Below, one piece after another: positions 5,753 through 35,364 of a stretch of 36,099 bases of DNA. The translations under genes were made by a program, and so were the position numbers. A model generated the notes under the pieces. The model was given only the letters and a program-made list of their open reading frames with translations. It had not been told where the DNA came from and did no database searches. The stretch is from positions 1-36,099 of IMG/VR virus record IMGVR_UViG_3300007609_000049; one strand, written 5' to 3'. Positions within the stretch are counted from its first letter, which is position 1; every line of letters starts with the position of its first letter. The stretch is from a virus.

Positions 5753-8700
5753 TTATTTTTTAACTAAAGTAATACTAAGCCCTAATGACTCAGAAAAACC
5801 TGCCCTTTTGTTATATATTAGGCGCGTATCAAAGTCGTTGGTATTTAGTATTTTAGATGAAAAGTTTTCATTAATAATTAAACCTGCTGATTTTTTGTCT
5901 GAATTATTCAATAATGCAGTTTGATAGTCTGTTGGTTTATCTAATCGTTCTCGTTTTGTATATAAATTAATTGTACCTATTTTATATTGTGATAGTATAT
6001 TATCTTCAATATATTTTTTAACATCATCATTTAAAGTATCTTCTTCACCAAAACTATATTCTTCATTTATATACTTAGAAAATACATTTTTAATAGGTTG
6101 AAATAGAAAATCAATTAATTTTTTTCTTATAAATAAATAAAGTTCAATTTTAATATTATCTTCCTTATGCATAAAATCACCATCTACTAAATCAGGCTGT
6201 TTAATAGCAGGCTCAAAAAATTCTGAAGGTGAAAAGGTATCTAATGTTATTTGATCTGGTGTTTTCATATACTTTGACCCAAAGAAAGATTTCTTTTCTT
6301 TCATTGATCTTGTCCCAATAATTATTTCAGTTGTATTTTTGTCTAAACTTTTTCTAAAATAACCAGGTTCCCAGTTTGAAGAAAATATGTAAAAGTCTCT
6401 CTTATCAATACCTACTTCATTAATTAAAGGGTATAAACTCCTAAATGCACTTTCATTTGATAGTTCTAAAACTGAAGAAGGATCTTCAATATTTACTTTA
6501 TGATAAAATAAATTTTTAATTTGTCCAAAATTTAAAACTTTAGAACTATTGAATTGAGAATTAGCATGTCTAGTTAAATTAAATACTTTAAGTTTATAAT
6601 CTTCATCAGGTATAAAACTACCAGTTGAATCTGTTAAACCAGTGGATCCTGTGTTTTGTATAAAATCTAATTCTAAATAAGGATCTTTAAAAAATATAAC
6701 ATCATTAGATATAGGTTCATAACTACCTGAATGTCTAGCAATAGGTGTAATTCTAGGAGTTTTTTGTAAACTTAAATCATAACCAATAATATCAATTAAA
6801 TTAAATGATGTTGGCTTAGCAGGATCTGGTAAAACTCCAGTATAAATAGACTTAAGTATATCATCTTGTGATCTTAAGTTAAGTAAAAATGTTTGTACAA
6901 AATTACCTGATGAATCTAATAAAGGTTCACCGCTTTCATTTATAGTTTCATATACAACGCTAGGATCTCCTTGGTTAACTGCTTTGGCTATAGATGCAAA
7001 TGAAACACTATTTAAAATATTTCTAAATTTGTTATAACCACCTCCTATAGTAATATAGTCTGCTTGTCTTAATATTAATTCAGGTGGGGTACCAGGTGAT
7101 GGTAATACTGTAATATTTCCATTTTTTAATACTCTACTACATATTAATATATCATCAGACAAAACTTTAGTTATACCATCAATTAAAAAAGTATCATTAC
7201 CTATTTGAAATTGTATATTTGTATACTGACCATCTATTCCTACATTCACATCGCTTAAAAATTTAGTAGGTATACCATTAATATCAGGTTGACCTTTTAT
7301 TTTTACTTTTGACACATCCTCAACCCATGGACCACTAGTTGTAAAACTTATAGCACCTTGCATATTACCATTTTCATATTCAAACTGGTCTCCTATTTTA
7401 ATAGGCTCACATGAACTATCTGTAGAATATGCGCTATTTAGTGAATATAAACTGGTTCTATCTATAATTTGATCATTATCATTGATACATTCATATGCAA
7501 GATTTATTGATATTAACATAACAATAGTTTTCCACTTCTCATTTTTAATTATTTTAATTTGAGACTCTGGTTTGTTTGGTATATTAGGAACAAGCATAAC
7601 GGAAAATCTATAATCATTAAACCTACCATCTCTAACATAAGAAATACTTTTAGCATTAAAATTAACATTAGCAGATTTTAATGCTTTAGGTTTTGCAATA
7701 ATTTTTACCCCTCTTAAAAAGGCTTCACTAAAATTATCTTCATCACCACCACTAAAAACACCATATCTTAATTGTTTGTCAACAATACCAGTTTCAAAAG
7801 AATTACTTAACTTATCTATTATAAAATATTCATCAAAATAATTTATGTTTACATCTTGGAATGTACCTGGTATATAGGGTGTATTAAGTGTAGGATTAGG
7901 CAATATTGAGTCAGTAGGTGCTTCATTGAAATAACTCCAAGACTCTTCAATTGCGTTTTGATTGAAATATTCTGGTACCTTTGCTAAATAATACCATTCA
8001 TGAGAAAATCCAAACGGTGATCTATTAAAATCATATTTAGAAGGTGAAAAATTATTTAAAGTAAATGCTTCAGATACGTTTAATCTATATGGATTATTTC
8101 TTACATCCTTTCCATTTTTAAAATACCCCCATTTGTTTATATAGGGTATTACTCTAGATGATACTGCTTGTGATGTTAAATAATTTTCTTCAAGTCTATT
8201 ATACTCAGATGAAATAACAGAATCAAAAGATTCATCTGGGTCTGCATCTTTAAGTAAACCTATTAAAGTTCCAAATCCACCATTATCATAAAAATTAATA
8301 ATATCTGGATTAGAAGAAACACCAGTAGGAATAAATGAACCCCCTGTAACACCAGTTGATATAATATCATTTTGTGTATAATACTCTTTCTCAAATTCTA
8401 ATTCACCTAAATTTCCATATAATTCACTATAAAAATCATAATCAAAGTCTTTAATTGGGAAAAATGAAAATCTACCAAATGAAGGTTTATATTCATTATA
8501 TAATGAAACTTGTTTTATACTAGTTAAGTAAATATCATTATCTTCCAGTTGTATAATTATATACTTATCTACATTTCTAAATCCTATTATTTCATTATTA
8601 TTATTTCGTATAGGTTCTTCTAAATAAGGCATATAATTTTTAATAGAAGTAAAACCACCATTTGTTTTAATAAACTTACCAGGTGTAAATCTATCTTCAT

Positions 8701-10402: not shown

Positions 10403-10452
10403 TTAATTTTACTTTTTTTATTTATTTAAGAACAAAAACAAAGTAAAATTAA
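10403..10452 (-). promoter_or_regulatory. 13-bp inverted repeat abutting the start codon of the 1549-residue protein gene
   Basis: The arms are 10403-10415 and 10440-10452 and are perfectly complementary, with a 24-base spacer. In the transcript the 5' arm (TTAATTTTACTTT) contains the TAA stop codon of the upstream gene, and the 3' arm (AAAGTAAAATTAA) ends exactly one base before the ATG. There is no following U-tract, so I do not read it as an intrinsic terminator. A ribosome ending the upstream gene would have to open this stem, which fits translational coupling; that function is inference. Confidence 0.5.
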
Positions 10453-22982: not shown

Positions 22983-23053
22983 AGAGAGACTTCTTTTATT
23001 ATATATTCTCTCTTAATTTTTAGTAAATTATAATATAAAAAATCTATATAAAA
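22983..23053 (-). promoter_or_regulatory. 71-base intergenic leader with a hairpin next to the gp25-like start
   Basis: In the transcript AGAGAGA (23013-23007) can pair with TCTCTCT (22989-22983), with a 17-base loop, and the ATG follows at once. The rest of the gap is plain A/T sequence with no promoter that I recognise: no T4-type late box TATAAATA and no Bacteroidota-type TTTG pair. It is the second longest gap in the window and lies between the 280-residue protein gene and the wedge genes. Confidence 0.35.
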
Positions 23054-23899: not shown

Positions 23900-25195
23900 T
23901 TATTTTATTTTTTCTATTTCTATAACCTCAGTATTATTAAATTTAGCATGATTAGTAGCTCTACCTTTTCTAAATATACCACCATTCATCTCACCGCTAA
24001 AAACACCTAATTTTCCAAAAATATAACAATCATCAGTCATGACATTTCTACTCACATAAGAATCTTCAATTTTTGATTTCTTAACAGTAGTATTACCAAA
24101 TAAGTTTGATTGTAATACTGAAGAATCTAAAATTTCACAATTAAATAAATCACATGTTTTTATATTTCCTTTAATTGTACAATCAACTAAATCAACATTT
24201 TCAACTAAAAAACATTTGTTTAATACAGAATCTTTAATTTGGATTTTACTAATGTCAGAATCATAATTCAATAGCCCTGAAGATAAACCAGATTCTGTTA
24301 TAAGTTTAAATATATTATCTCTCATTTTAGGATAATACATTTCAATTATATTATCATAGGTCTGAAGATCAACCATTAATTTAATTTTAGGATATATCTT
24401 TTTAAATTTAGAATACGATTTATATGATTGAATTACCTTTTGGTGGTTTTCTAAAATTTTATCTAATGATAATTTATCCTCTTTAGTATAGTTAGGATAT
24501 TCTAAAGTTTCATATAGTGAAATTATAAAATGTTCTGTTATTCTTAATATTGAATTATACTTCTTTTCATAATCTTTACCACCTAAATATCTAAATTCAA
24601 TATACCCTTTAGGTACTTTAGTAAAATTAACACCATAATATTTTTCATTAACAAACTTATAATTTTGCCATATAGTTTTTCCTGATGAATCTTGTGTCAT
24701 TCCACTAAGAGGCACCACAAATTTTATTGATTTTGCATATACTGAATCTTTTCTATTAGGAAATGCCTTATATACTTTGTCTTCATCAAAATTAAGGACA
24801 AATTTACCAATATCTAAATTTGATACATTAACAGATGGTCCTAAGGTTTTACCATCAAATGCAATATTAACATGAATTGAACATCTTTCATTAGTATTTC
24901 CATTTTCTCTTATCCACTTTAAAGTTTTTGCTAAAATTAACTTAGCTTCAGTAAAATGAAGCGGCCCTGTTACGAGTTCAATCATACCAGTACCACCTGA
25001 ATTATCTGGTTCTAATTTAAATGTGGTATCTGATGGTGTAAAATCACTATGAGCCTTTTCCTCAATTCTTATTCTTTTATTTAAAGATTGAATTAAAGAT
25101 TCTTTAGTTTTACTAAGATCTATGTTTGAGAAAAATTCAAACTCAAAACCTATCTTTGAGTTATGAATTGCTATAAGCTGTTCATTTGAATACAT
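23900..25195 (-). CDS. Amidoligase-like enzyme fused to pentapeptide repeats
   Basis: The 431-residue product has two parts. Residues about 10-300 match the pattern of the glutamine-synthetase-fold amidoligase family: GFEFEFF (16-22, acidic residues E18 and E20), MIELVTGPLHF (71-81, E73), CSIHVNI (105-111, H108) and YIEFRYLGG (198-206, E200, R202). Enzymes of this family are thought to use ATP to join a carboxyl and an amino group, forming amide bonds on peptides, proteins or cell-wall material. Residues about 320-395 form a run of pentapeptide repeats (CDLFN, CEILD, SSVLQ, SNLFG and similar), which should fold as a right-handed beta-helix. The gene sits between the S1 homologue and a tail gene. 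Its ATG at 25195 is inside a perfect 15-bp inverted repeat and has no Shine-Dalgarno sequence. The substrate is unknown. The domain calls rest on motif recognition only. Confidence 0.75.
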   Translation of the reverse strand: MYSNEQLIAIHNSKIGFEFEFFSNIDLSKTKESLIQSLNKRIRIEEKAHSDFTPSDTTFKLEPDNSGGTGMIELVTGPLHFTEAKLILAKTLKWIRENGNTNERCSIHVNIAFDGKTLGPSVNVSNLDIGKFVLNFDEDKVYKAFPNRKDSVYAKSIKFVVPLSGMTQDSSGKTIWQNYKFVNEKYYGVNFTKVPKGYIEFRYLGGKDYEKKYNSILRITEHFIISLYETLEYPNYTKEDKLSLDKILENHQKVIQSYKSYSKFKKIYPKIKLMVDLQTYDNIIEMYYPKMRDNIFKLITESGLSSGLLNYDSDISKIQIKDSVLNKCFLVENVDLVDCTIKGNIKTCDLFNCEILDSSVLQSNLFGNTTVKKSKIEDSYVSRNVMTDDCYIFGKLGVFSGEMNGGIFRKGRATNHAKFNNTEVIEIEKIK

Positions 25196-25234
25196 ACCAG
25201 GTTTAATTTGTTTATATATTTAAACCTGGTATGT
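25192..25234 (-). promoter_or_regulatory. 15-bp start-codon hairpin of the amidoligase-like gene
   Basis: The arms are 25220-25234 and 25192-25206, perfectly complementary over 15 bases, with a 13-base loop. In the transcript the 5' arm is ACATACCAGGTTTAA and the 3' arm is TTAAACCTGGTATGT; the ATG at 25195-25193 is inside the 3' arm, paired with a CAU. The upstream S1-like gene stops 6 bases before the 5' arm. No U-tract follows, and the sequence after the hairpin is coding, which argues against an intrinsic terminator. I read it as a translation-control element for the amidoligase-like gene (inference). Confidence 0.6.
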
Positions 25235-25240
25235 TCTATA

Positions 25241-26383
25241 TTAAGATAATCCCATTGAAATTTTTCGTTCATTAGGGCTAATACTTCTGATAATAACTTC
25301 AACACTATCACCTTTATTTAAAGTTTTATCATTAAGTTCAGATTTATGGAGAAGTCCACTTATTCCTTTTTCTAATTGTATAAATACTCCATATTTTGTT
25401 TTTTTAGTAACTTTACCTATTACATTTTTCATAGGTGGATATTTTTTACCTGCACCATCCCATGGGTCTTCAACAGCACCATGTTGAGTAAGAATAATTT
25501 TATTTTGATTAATAATATCCTTAACCCAAAATTTAATGTCATCACCTGGTTTAATTGTTCTGGATTCAAATTCTTTTAATGATTCACTGATTTCATCCTT
25601 TGGTATTAATCCTGTTAAACATTCATTAAATTCAGCGAAAATTCCAAAGGTAGTAGTACCAGTAACCTTTCCTATAATATATTCTTTAGTATTTGATCTT
25701 AAGTCATCAATTTCAGTTGGAATTAAAGTCTTAAGATATTCACGGTGAGATACCACTATTGTATTTTTTTCACGTGAATATGTAATTGGCATAACTATTA
25801 ATTCCTTACCAATTAGAGAATTAAAGTCATGTAGTTTATTTATGCCACCTAACGATCCTGGCATGAAACATCTTATTCCTGAAATTTCAACCCAATAACC
25901 ACCATGAATAAGCTCTTTAACTTTGCATTTATATCCTACTGATTTATTTCCGATAGATTCTAATATTTCAGCTTTCTTAACCTCTGCTAATGCATCAGAT
26001 ATAGATGCAATTATTTCACCATTAGGCTTTGTTTTAATTTTAACATCAACTATCATATTAGGTTTAAGCTGCTCAGAAATTTCTTTAGGCTCTTTCGTTG
26101 TATAACATACTGCTGTAAATTTAGAACCAATATTAACAAGCGCATGATCTTCACTAACACTATGTATAATACCTTTCATAATAGCACCATCAGGTACATC
26201 AACATTATTATATGATTCGTCATCATTATTATTACCTTCAATATCGATACCATAGTCTTTAAGCATATCAATAGCATAAGGCTCACTTGATAAAAGTTTA
26301 ACCCCTTTAGGTAATTTTAATTTTACCGTTTTAGTATCAAACGGATCTTCACTTAATTGGATTGTAATTTCTTGTTCAATCAT
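25241..26383 (-). CDS. Phage-encoded ribosomal protein S1 homologue (four S1 domains)
   Basis: The 380-residue product carries four S1 (OB-fold RNA-binding) domains at about 65-128, 147-213, 233-300 and 318-379, after a 60-residue acidic N-terminal extension. The order and linkers match bacterial bS1 domains 1-4. Domain 2 has the GGYWVEISGIRCFMPGSL pattern (bS1: GGFTVELNGIRAFLPGSL) and ends NTIVVSHREYL. Domain 3 ends at VEDPW...KKYPP, like EDPW...KRYP in E. coli S1. Domain 4 reads KYGVFIQLEKGISGLLHKSE. Domains 5-6 of the 557-residue E. coli protein are absent. In bS1, domains 1-2 dock on the 30S subunit and the following domains hold and unwind mRNA. A role in recruiting phage mRNA to ribosomes is therefore likely, but it is inference. 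The gene follows the longest intergenic gap of the window (86 bases) and precedes the amidoligase-like gene. Confidence 0.92.
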   Translation of the reverse strand: MIEQEITIQLSEDPFDTKTVKLKLPKGVKLLSSEPYAIDMLKDYGIDIEGNNNDDESYNNVDVPDGAIMKGIIHSVSEDHALVNIGSKFTAVCYTTKEPKEISEQLKPNMIVDVKIKTKPNGEIIASISDALAEVKKAEILESIGNKSVGYKCKVKELIHGGYWVEISGIRCFMPGSLGGINKLHDFNSLIGKELIVMPITYSREKNTIVVSHREYLKTLIPTEIDDLRSNTKEYIIGKVTGTTTFGIFAEFNECLTGLIPKDEISESLKEFESRTIKPGDDIKFWVKDIINQNKIILTQHGAVEDPWDGAGKKYPPMKNVIGKVTKKTKYGVFIQLEKGISGLLHKSELNDKTLNKGDSVEVIIRSISPNERKISMGLS

Positions 26384-26469
26384 TTTTATTTTTTAAATAG
26401 TTAATTTAGATTATATATTACCTACTAAATAGTTTATTATTTTTACACTTAATTAGGTATATTGTTTCA
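26384..26469 (-). promoter_or_regulatory. 86-base leader of the S1-like gene
   Basis: This is the longest intergenic stretch in the window. It is nearly pure A/T and ends in an A-rich run (TTTAAAAAATAAAA) before the ATG, with no Shine-Dalgarno sequence. An imperfect inverted repeat is present: ATATACCTA pairs with TAGGTAATAT, with one bulged A and a loop of about 25 bases. I see no T4-type late promoter box and no clear Bacteroidota-type promoter. Its length and place suggest separate regulation of the S1-like gene, but no site can be named. Confidence 0.3.
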
Positions 26470-34817: not shown

Positions 34818-35333
34818 TTATTTAAGCTGGCTTGTGAACGAATCTATTAAATGTTCAACTGATTTATTAAGTAAATTTTTGATTTGTTTACTATCTAATT
34901 GGTCATTAATATAATTCATTAATGCAAATTTTACTTTATCATCACCAAATGAGTTAGATAAAACTTTATATAAATCTTTTGTTGGGATACTGATAGGTAC
35001 AGATATATCTAAACTATAAGTATCTGTTTTATCCATTGTATCAAGTAAAGACATAATTGGATTTTTTAACCTATCAGTATTTTTATTATCTGTATTATTA
35101 ATTTCATTTTGCTGTGGTCGTTTTTTATTATTAGATGGTTCTAAATTTATATCATCTAATAAGTTACCTTCATTAGTAACATCAACCATAAATTCATTTA
35201 AGAGGGTAGCATTAATTCTAGACCCACTTTCAAAATCAATCCATTCTGGGTCTTCTTTTAATACAGTTTCAACCTTTCCTAATTTATCCCCTTTAATCCA
35301 TTGGAGCTTTTTTACTTCTTGACCTTCTGACAT
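34818..35333 (-). CDS. Hypothetical phage protein (171 residues)
   Basis: The product begins MSEGQEVKKLQWIKGDKLGK. An N-terminal region with DPEWIDFESGSRINATLLNE is followed by a low-complexity asparagine/lysine-rich linker (about 66-90), then a helical C-terminal domain (VPISIPTKDLYKVLSNSFGD to the end). The two-domain layout with a flexible linker suggests an adaptor or assembly factor; I do not recognise a family. The ATG at 35333 is buried in a perfect 15-bp inverted repeat. The upstream gene is the collagen-like fibre gene, 42 bases away. Confidence 0.62.
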   Translation of the reverse strand: MSEGQEVKKLQWIKGDKLGKVETVLKEDPEWIDFESGSRINATLLNEFMVDVTNEGNLLDDINLEPSNNKKRPQQNEINNTDNKNTDRLKNPIMSLLDTMDKTDTYSLDISVPISIPTKDLYKVLSNSFGDDKVKFALMNYINDQLDSKQIKNLLNKSVEHLIDSFTSQLK

Positions 35334-35364
35334 AATCTTTATTTTTTATATAAAGATTATGTCA
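35328..35364 (-). promoter_or_regulatory. 15-bp start-codon hairpin of the 171-residue protein gene
   Basis: The arms are 35350-35364 and 35328-35342, perfect over 15 bases, with a 7-base loop (ATAAAAA). In the transcript the arms are TGACATAATCTTTAT and ATAAAGATTATGTCA; the ATG at 35333-35331 is inside the 3' arm. The stop of the upstream fibre gene lies 11 bases before the 5' arm. No U-tract follows, so an intrinsic terminator is less likely than translation control. The layout is the same as at 25192-25234. Confidence 0.6.

Follow-up and report, generated by a model that had tools for sequence, protein, structure and literature searches.

The stretch of DNA analysed here (the window) comprises 36,099 nucleotides (nt) of the IMG/VR virus record IMGVR_UViG_3300007609_000049. 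On its minus strand, among tail and baseplate genes, lies an amidoligase-like gene (23900–25195) of 431 amino acids (aa), which matches Pfam Amidoligase_2 (PF12224) with an E value of 4.5e-05, just above the curated cut-off. Its upstream neighbour on the same strand (25241–26383) encodes 380 aa with an S1 domain (Pfam S1, E 8.9e-24). The two genes are separated by 45 nt. Coding conservation (ATGTAYWCYAAYGA...) starts at the window's ATG in nearly all close relatives, and the ATG at 25195 is the right start of the amidoligase-like gene. In the group of relatives that includes locus L047, a TTG a few codons in seems to be used as the start; near L047 4986–5001, this apparent TTG start immediately follows a short hairpin, which itself overlaps the stop codon of the S1-like gene.

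Most of the spacer and the start codon of the amidoligase-like gene fall within an inverted repeat (25192–25206 / 25220–25234) in which all 15 of 15 base pairs (bp) are complementary (100%), with 13 nt between the arms. Read along the mRNA, the S1-like stop codon is followed by 6 nt, the 5' arm (ACATACCAGGTTTAA, 25220–25234), the loop (ATATATAAACAAA, 25207–25219) and the 3' arm (TTAAACCTGGTATGT, 25192–25206), all on the minus strand; the start codon (25193–25195) sits inside the 3' arm. These coordinates confirm the geometry described in the original prediction, which was made from the letters of the window: a perfect 15-bp hairpin with a 13-base loop, 6 bases past the S1-like stop, and the ATG in its 3' arm. 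Such a hairpin is far beyond chance: the window holds two perfect inverted repeats of at least 15 bp with loops of 3–30 nt, compared with 0.02 expected from first-order Markov simulations. The region folds as RNA with an energy of -33.1 kcal/mol (z -4.0) when the plus-strand letters are given to the folding tool, and the mRNA strand adopts the same stem. The start codon is sequestered in this fold, as had been proposed; its AUG is paired within the 3' arm of a stable hairpin, which is the arrangement of the initiation region in a T4-type switch.

No U-tract follows the stem, and no terminator-like site was called at the hairpin or between the S1-like and amidoligase-like genes. An intrinsic terminator, defined as a stem with a U-tract, was considered and rejected, in agreement with the view originally taken of this hairpin. 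An Rfam search of the window gave no match at gathering scores, and a tRNA search of it found none.

The promoter-like motif in the loop

A promoter-like core, AATATATAA (25212–25220, minus strand), lies between the arms of the hairpin, 25 nt before the ATG. The original prediction had missed this motif, which we regard as the decisive feature of the locus. Relatives of the amidoligase-like gene were collected as a first set of 80, followed by more from two other close queries. In nearly all close relatives AATATATAA, usually in the form AATATATAAACAAAT, occurs approximately 25 nt before the ATG at this junction, and the bases flanking it vary. Across the window and 54 close loci, 172 copies are on the coding strand and one is on the opposite strand, mostly 20–40 nt before open reading frame (ORF) starts; these loci share ancestry, so the sites are not independent. 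Within the -18 to -45 interval of six contigs, AATATATAA ranked first, with 33 matches compared with a median of 1.5, when set against all 84 permutations of its letters. In these six contigs its distance to the start has a sharp mode at 25 nt, a value shared by the variant AATAAATAA. Among the motifs that precede the genes of this lineage, AATATATAA is the strongest.

Its position, its strand bias and its resemblance to the late consensus of T4, TATAAATA, suggest that AATATATAA is likely a promoter core of the T4 late type, read by a gp55-like sigma factor. Homologues of the T4 late sigma factor gp55 (phrog_234) were found in LR756500 (E 1.7e-12), G015 and G016 and also in G023, G024 and G025, six larger and more distant relatives in all; none was found in the window or its closest relatives, all of which are partial fragments. 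The T4 sliding-clamp family PF02916 (gp45-type) was not detected in three larger relatives, in a search that had no positive control. If the spacing of T4 late promoters is assumed, transcription is predicted to start near 25205, at the loop-facing end of the 3' arm and approximately 13 nt past the first T of TATATAA. Among open-licence papers, we found none describing the AATATATAA motif or promoter-in-loop hairpins in huge phages.

The S1-like gene carries a motif of its own (AATATATAA, 26411–26419, minus strand) without a hairpin. The same motif class precedes the orthologous S1-like start in G001, G003, G004, G005 and G008, and the S1-like gene has such a motif in all contigs examined. In L100 (LR756500, 300001–350000), a different motif, TTTTGGAT, is enriched upstream of genes (4 occurrences, compared with 0.36 expected) and is perhaps part of another promoter class.

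Covariation of the arms and similar hairpins in the window

The original prediction staked its hairpin on covariation of the two arms in related phages, and the arms do covary. Among ten lineages, each lineage's own arms pair with an average of -17.3 kcal/mol, compared with -8.2 kcal/mol for swapped arms, and 0 of 100,000 permutations were as good; among 22 distinct junctions the corresponding values are -14.5 and -10.0 kcal/mol (0 of 10,000 permutations). RNAalifold, applied to an alignment built without structure, found double-sided changes in 4 of 7 pairs. Pairing at the amidoligase-like hairpin is conserved by covariation.

The extent of this replacement is evident from individual loci. 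In place of the window's ACATACCAGGTTTAA / TTAAACCTGGTATGT, L042 has ATTCTGCCTGAAT / ATTCAGGTAGAAT and L047 has AAACTAAAT / ATTTAGTTT, while L146 has an entirely different 22-bp stem around the same loop, extending past the AUG. Stem length ranges from about 8 to 22 bp among lineages, and the arms share no sequence. The register of the stem also shifts between groups (that of the window is displaced relative to the CAAATCAGG group), which indicates that structure has been kept while sequence has been replaced; because of these shifts, no single consensus structure was forced on all lineages and the swap test was used instead. The 22 distinct arm pairs contain 22 G-U and 13 A-C pairs, the latter mostly at helix ends, and this excess of G-U favours the mRNA strand as the strand that pairs; such counts lean towards pairing, since the register was picked by best pairing, whereas the swap tests give both sides equal freedom.

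The hairpin is not universal. A sister group (L001, L002, L012, L032, L105, L106, L112 and L167) keeps the motif and has no strong hairpin, and L049 has neither, so the device is dispensable. A DNA search of phage records returned one distant record; LR756500 retains a motif, with no strong hairpin. Wherever a relative has a strong hairpin, the gene immediately upstream is the S1-like one. Different genes intervene between the S1-like and amidoligase-like genes in L001, L002, L049 and L106, where the hairpin is absent; in L012, L032, L105, L112 and L167 the S1-like gene is adjacent, yet there is no hairpin, which suggests loss in one group.

Two further observations were made among these loci. 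In the group lacking the main hairpin (L012, 4976–5013; L112, 2976–3013; and relatives), base pairing would be possible between the motif itself and the first codons (GGAATATAT / ATGTATTCC), and some members show a corresponding change on both sides (TTAG / CTAA). In L096 (G008 contig), near 6900–6980, the 3' part of a tRNA-like sequence (GGTTCGAATCC) apparently coincides with the start of an ORF.

Within the window, only 4 of 26 genes tested have a z of at least 2: the amidoligase-like gene, a gp25-like gene, a 1549-aa gene and a 171-aa gene. The gp25-like gene (start 22982) has a second device at 22983–23013 (minus strand), a 7-bp stem (AGAGAGA / TCTCTCT) around AATATATAA at 22999–23007. This stem ends at the ATG, with the motif in or beside the 5' arm; the nearest upstream stop codon is approximately 40 nt away. 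Pairing is retained in most relatives, but the swap test is weak (own arms -9.0, swapped -7.6) because most arms are nearly identical, and covariation is below that at 25192–25234. The hairpin before the 1549-aa gene (start 10402) occupies 10403–10452 (minus strand); it has 17-nt arms that are 94% complementary and end right at the ATG, and its loop contains AAATAAATAA with the AATAAATAA variant motif. In orthologues of this gene the arms are changed yet partly paired. For the gp25-like gene and the 1549-aa gene alike, several relatives show the same arrangement. At the 171-aa gene (start 35333), a perfect 14-bp hairpin (GACATAATCTTTAT / ATAAAGATTATGTC, 35329–35363, minus strand) buries the ATG, and the variant motif TATATAA (35346–35352) overlaps its arms and loop; the cost of opening the start region is 15.1 kcal/mol with the hairpin and 0.6 kcal/mol in the predicted promoter-started form. 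Orthologues of the 171-aa gene keep a TATAAA-like stretch and no hairpin was seen in them, so that this case is limited to the window. When all genes of six contigs were considered, the association between motif and start-codon hairpin was not significant (Fisher p 0.16), indicating that the device belongs to a few genes and is no general property of the promoter.

Accessibility of the start codon and alternative explanations

In the window, unfolding the stretch between -12 and the AUG is predicted to cost 17.7 kcal/mol in a read-through transcript, compared with 0.4 kcal/mol in the predicted promoter-started transcript. The difference has the same direction in most hairpin-bearing relatives (8 to 18 kcal/mol in several of them), and there is little or none in the hairpin-less sister group. 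A transcript reading through from the S1-like gene or beyond would carry both arms and fold, burying the start region and the AUG, and the amidoligase-like gene would be left untranslated. A transcript begun at the AATATATAA promoter would lose the 5' arm, leaving the AUG open. The gene would then yield protein solely from transcripts of its own promoter, as in T4 e, 49 and I-TevI. We consider it probable that the hairpin is such a switch, acting in cis on translation and with a promoter at its centre, so that mRNA from the gene's own promoter is translated and read-through mRNA is silent. As the S1-like gene has a promoter-like motif of the same class, read-through from it may not be earlier; the gain from the hairpin may therefore be the separation of two genes of one time class rather than of early from late.

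The original prediction proposed that a ribosome terminating on the S1-like gene could invade the 5' arm and free the amidoligase-like start, coupling the two genes. Such coupling would tie the levels of the two proteins together. The stop codon just 6 nt before the 5' arm is in keeping with such coupling, as is the pairing of the AUG with the base of the stem (25231–25233), which a terminating ribosome could perhaps just reach. The restriction of strong hairpins to positions directly behind the S1-like gene, and their absence where another gene intervenes, also speaks for coupling and makes a tie between the hairpin and transcription or translation of the S1-like gene possible; this pattern fits control of read-through equally well. 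Coupling predicts a fixed, short distance from stop codon to stem, however, and the observed distance varies from approximately 2 nt (L016) through 6 nt (window) and roughly 14–18 nt (L042) to about 30 nt (L033), while the gp25-like hairpin has no close stop codon at all. In addition, a terminating ribosome would open only a few of the 15 pairs, and coupling gives no account of the conserved promoter motif between the arms. Coupling is thus not supported as the main mechanism, and we regard it as unlikely.

Control of the neighbouring gene by the S1-domain protein itself, as an mRNA-unwinding factor, was also raised originally; the protein might bind the hairpin and unwind (or stabilize) it. 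Such a role would suit the S1 domains and the adjacency of the two genes, but the arms are rewritten between lineages with the loop motif alone constant, and genes distant from the S1-like one bear the same device, making this explanation very improbable. Neither stop-codon coupling nor S1 control is needed to explain the hairpin. We give equally little credence to a 3'-end structure of the S1-like mRNA (a terminator, an RNase processing site or an exonuclease block): although the hairpin lies just past the S1-like stop codon in most relatives that have it, neither a U-tract nor a terminator call accompanies it, the stem extends over the start codon that follows, and a promoter motif in the loop would be superfluous. 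Least probable of all is a DNA dyad serving as an operator for a repressor or activator, given that the symmetrical arms flanking the promoter-like motif share no sequence between lineages, vary from about 8 to 22 bp and have non-Watson-Crick pairs that lean to G-U on the mRNA strand.

If the hairpin is a translation switch of the kind described above, a broader picture can tentatively be suggested, in which a large-phage lineage with no evident Shine-Dalgarno sequences shields selected late genes from read-through by a small set of promoter-in-loop hairpins (at the amidoligase-like gene, the gp25-like gene and the 1549-aa gene), with the loop fixed, the arms rewritten and the S1-like protein possibly tuning access to start codons. 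With a switch at the amidoligase-like gene, a gene-timing trick of T4 would extend to distant, mostly uncultured phages in which no Shine-Dalgarno sequence is evident and the start codon itself is hidden. The analysis also names a likely promoter motif for this phage group (AATATATAA or AATAAATAA, with 25 nt as its commonest distance to the ATG) and provides an unusually clean case of covariation, in which a putative promoter fixes the loop while the stem is rewritten. The hairpins also mark genes whose expression the phage seems to time.

Comparison with T4 leaders

In T4, hairpins silence the long transcripts of e and I-TevI made early, whereas transcripts from the late promoters lack the 5' strand of the hairpin and are translated (PMC3014915, PMC2988022). 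When we folded the leaders of T4 e, 49 and I-TevII, the late-promoter sequence was either inside the arms or adjacent to them, and the 3' arm contained or bordered the initiation region. The leader of gene e (lysozyme) resembles that of the amidoligase-like gene in having a 3' arm over the initiation region, and its late promoter TATAAATA sits between the arms, where the window has the promoter-like AATATATAA (PMC3014915). Its promoter transcripts lack the 5' arm (PMC3014915), as is predicted for those of the window. It differs in that T4 hides a strong Shine-Dalgarno sequence, whereas the window hairpin pairs the AUG itself and no Shine-Dalgarno sequence is evident; the motif (AATATATAA), the gene and the phage lineage are also different, and the gene upstream in the window has the same promoter class.

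The leaders of T4 gene 49, soc, I-TevI, I-TevII and segB and of Aeh1 mobE share the layout of the window hairpin and the logic proposed for it (PMC2988022), with that of I-TevII being close to it in geometry. These genes lie in early or middle transcription units, whereas the amidoligase-like gene has tail and baseplate genes as its neighbours. T4 gene 25, like the gp25-like gene of the window, bears a stem at its start; the T4 stem draws the Shine-Dalgarno sequence and AUG closer and aids translation (PMC3014915), whereas the gp25-like stem, which has a promoter motif inside it, is expected to be inhibitory. The hairpin at the amidoligase-like start appears to work like the T4 device, with its promoter activity and timing read from motif and position.
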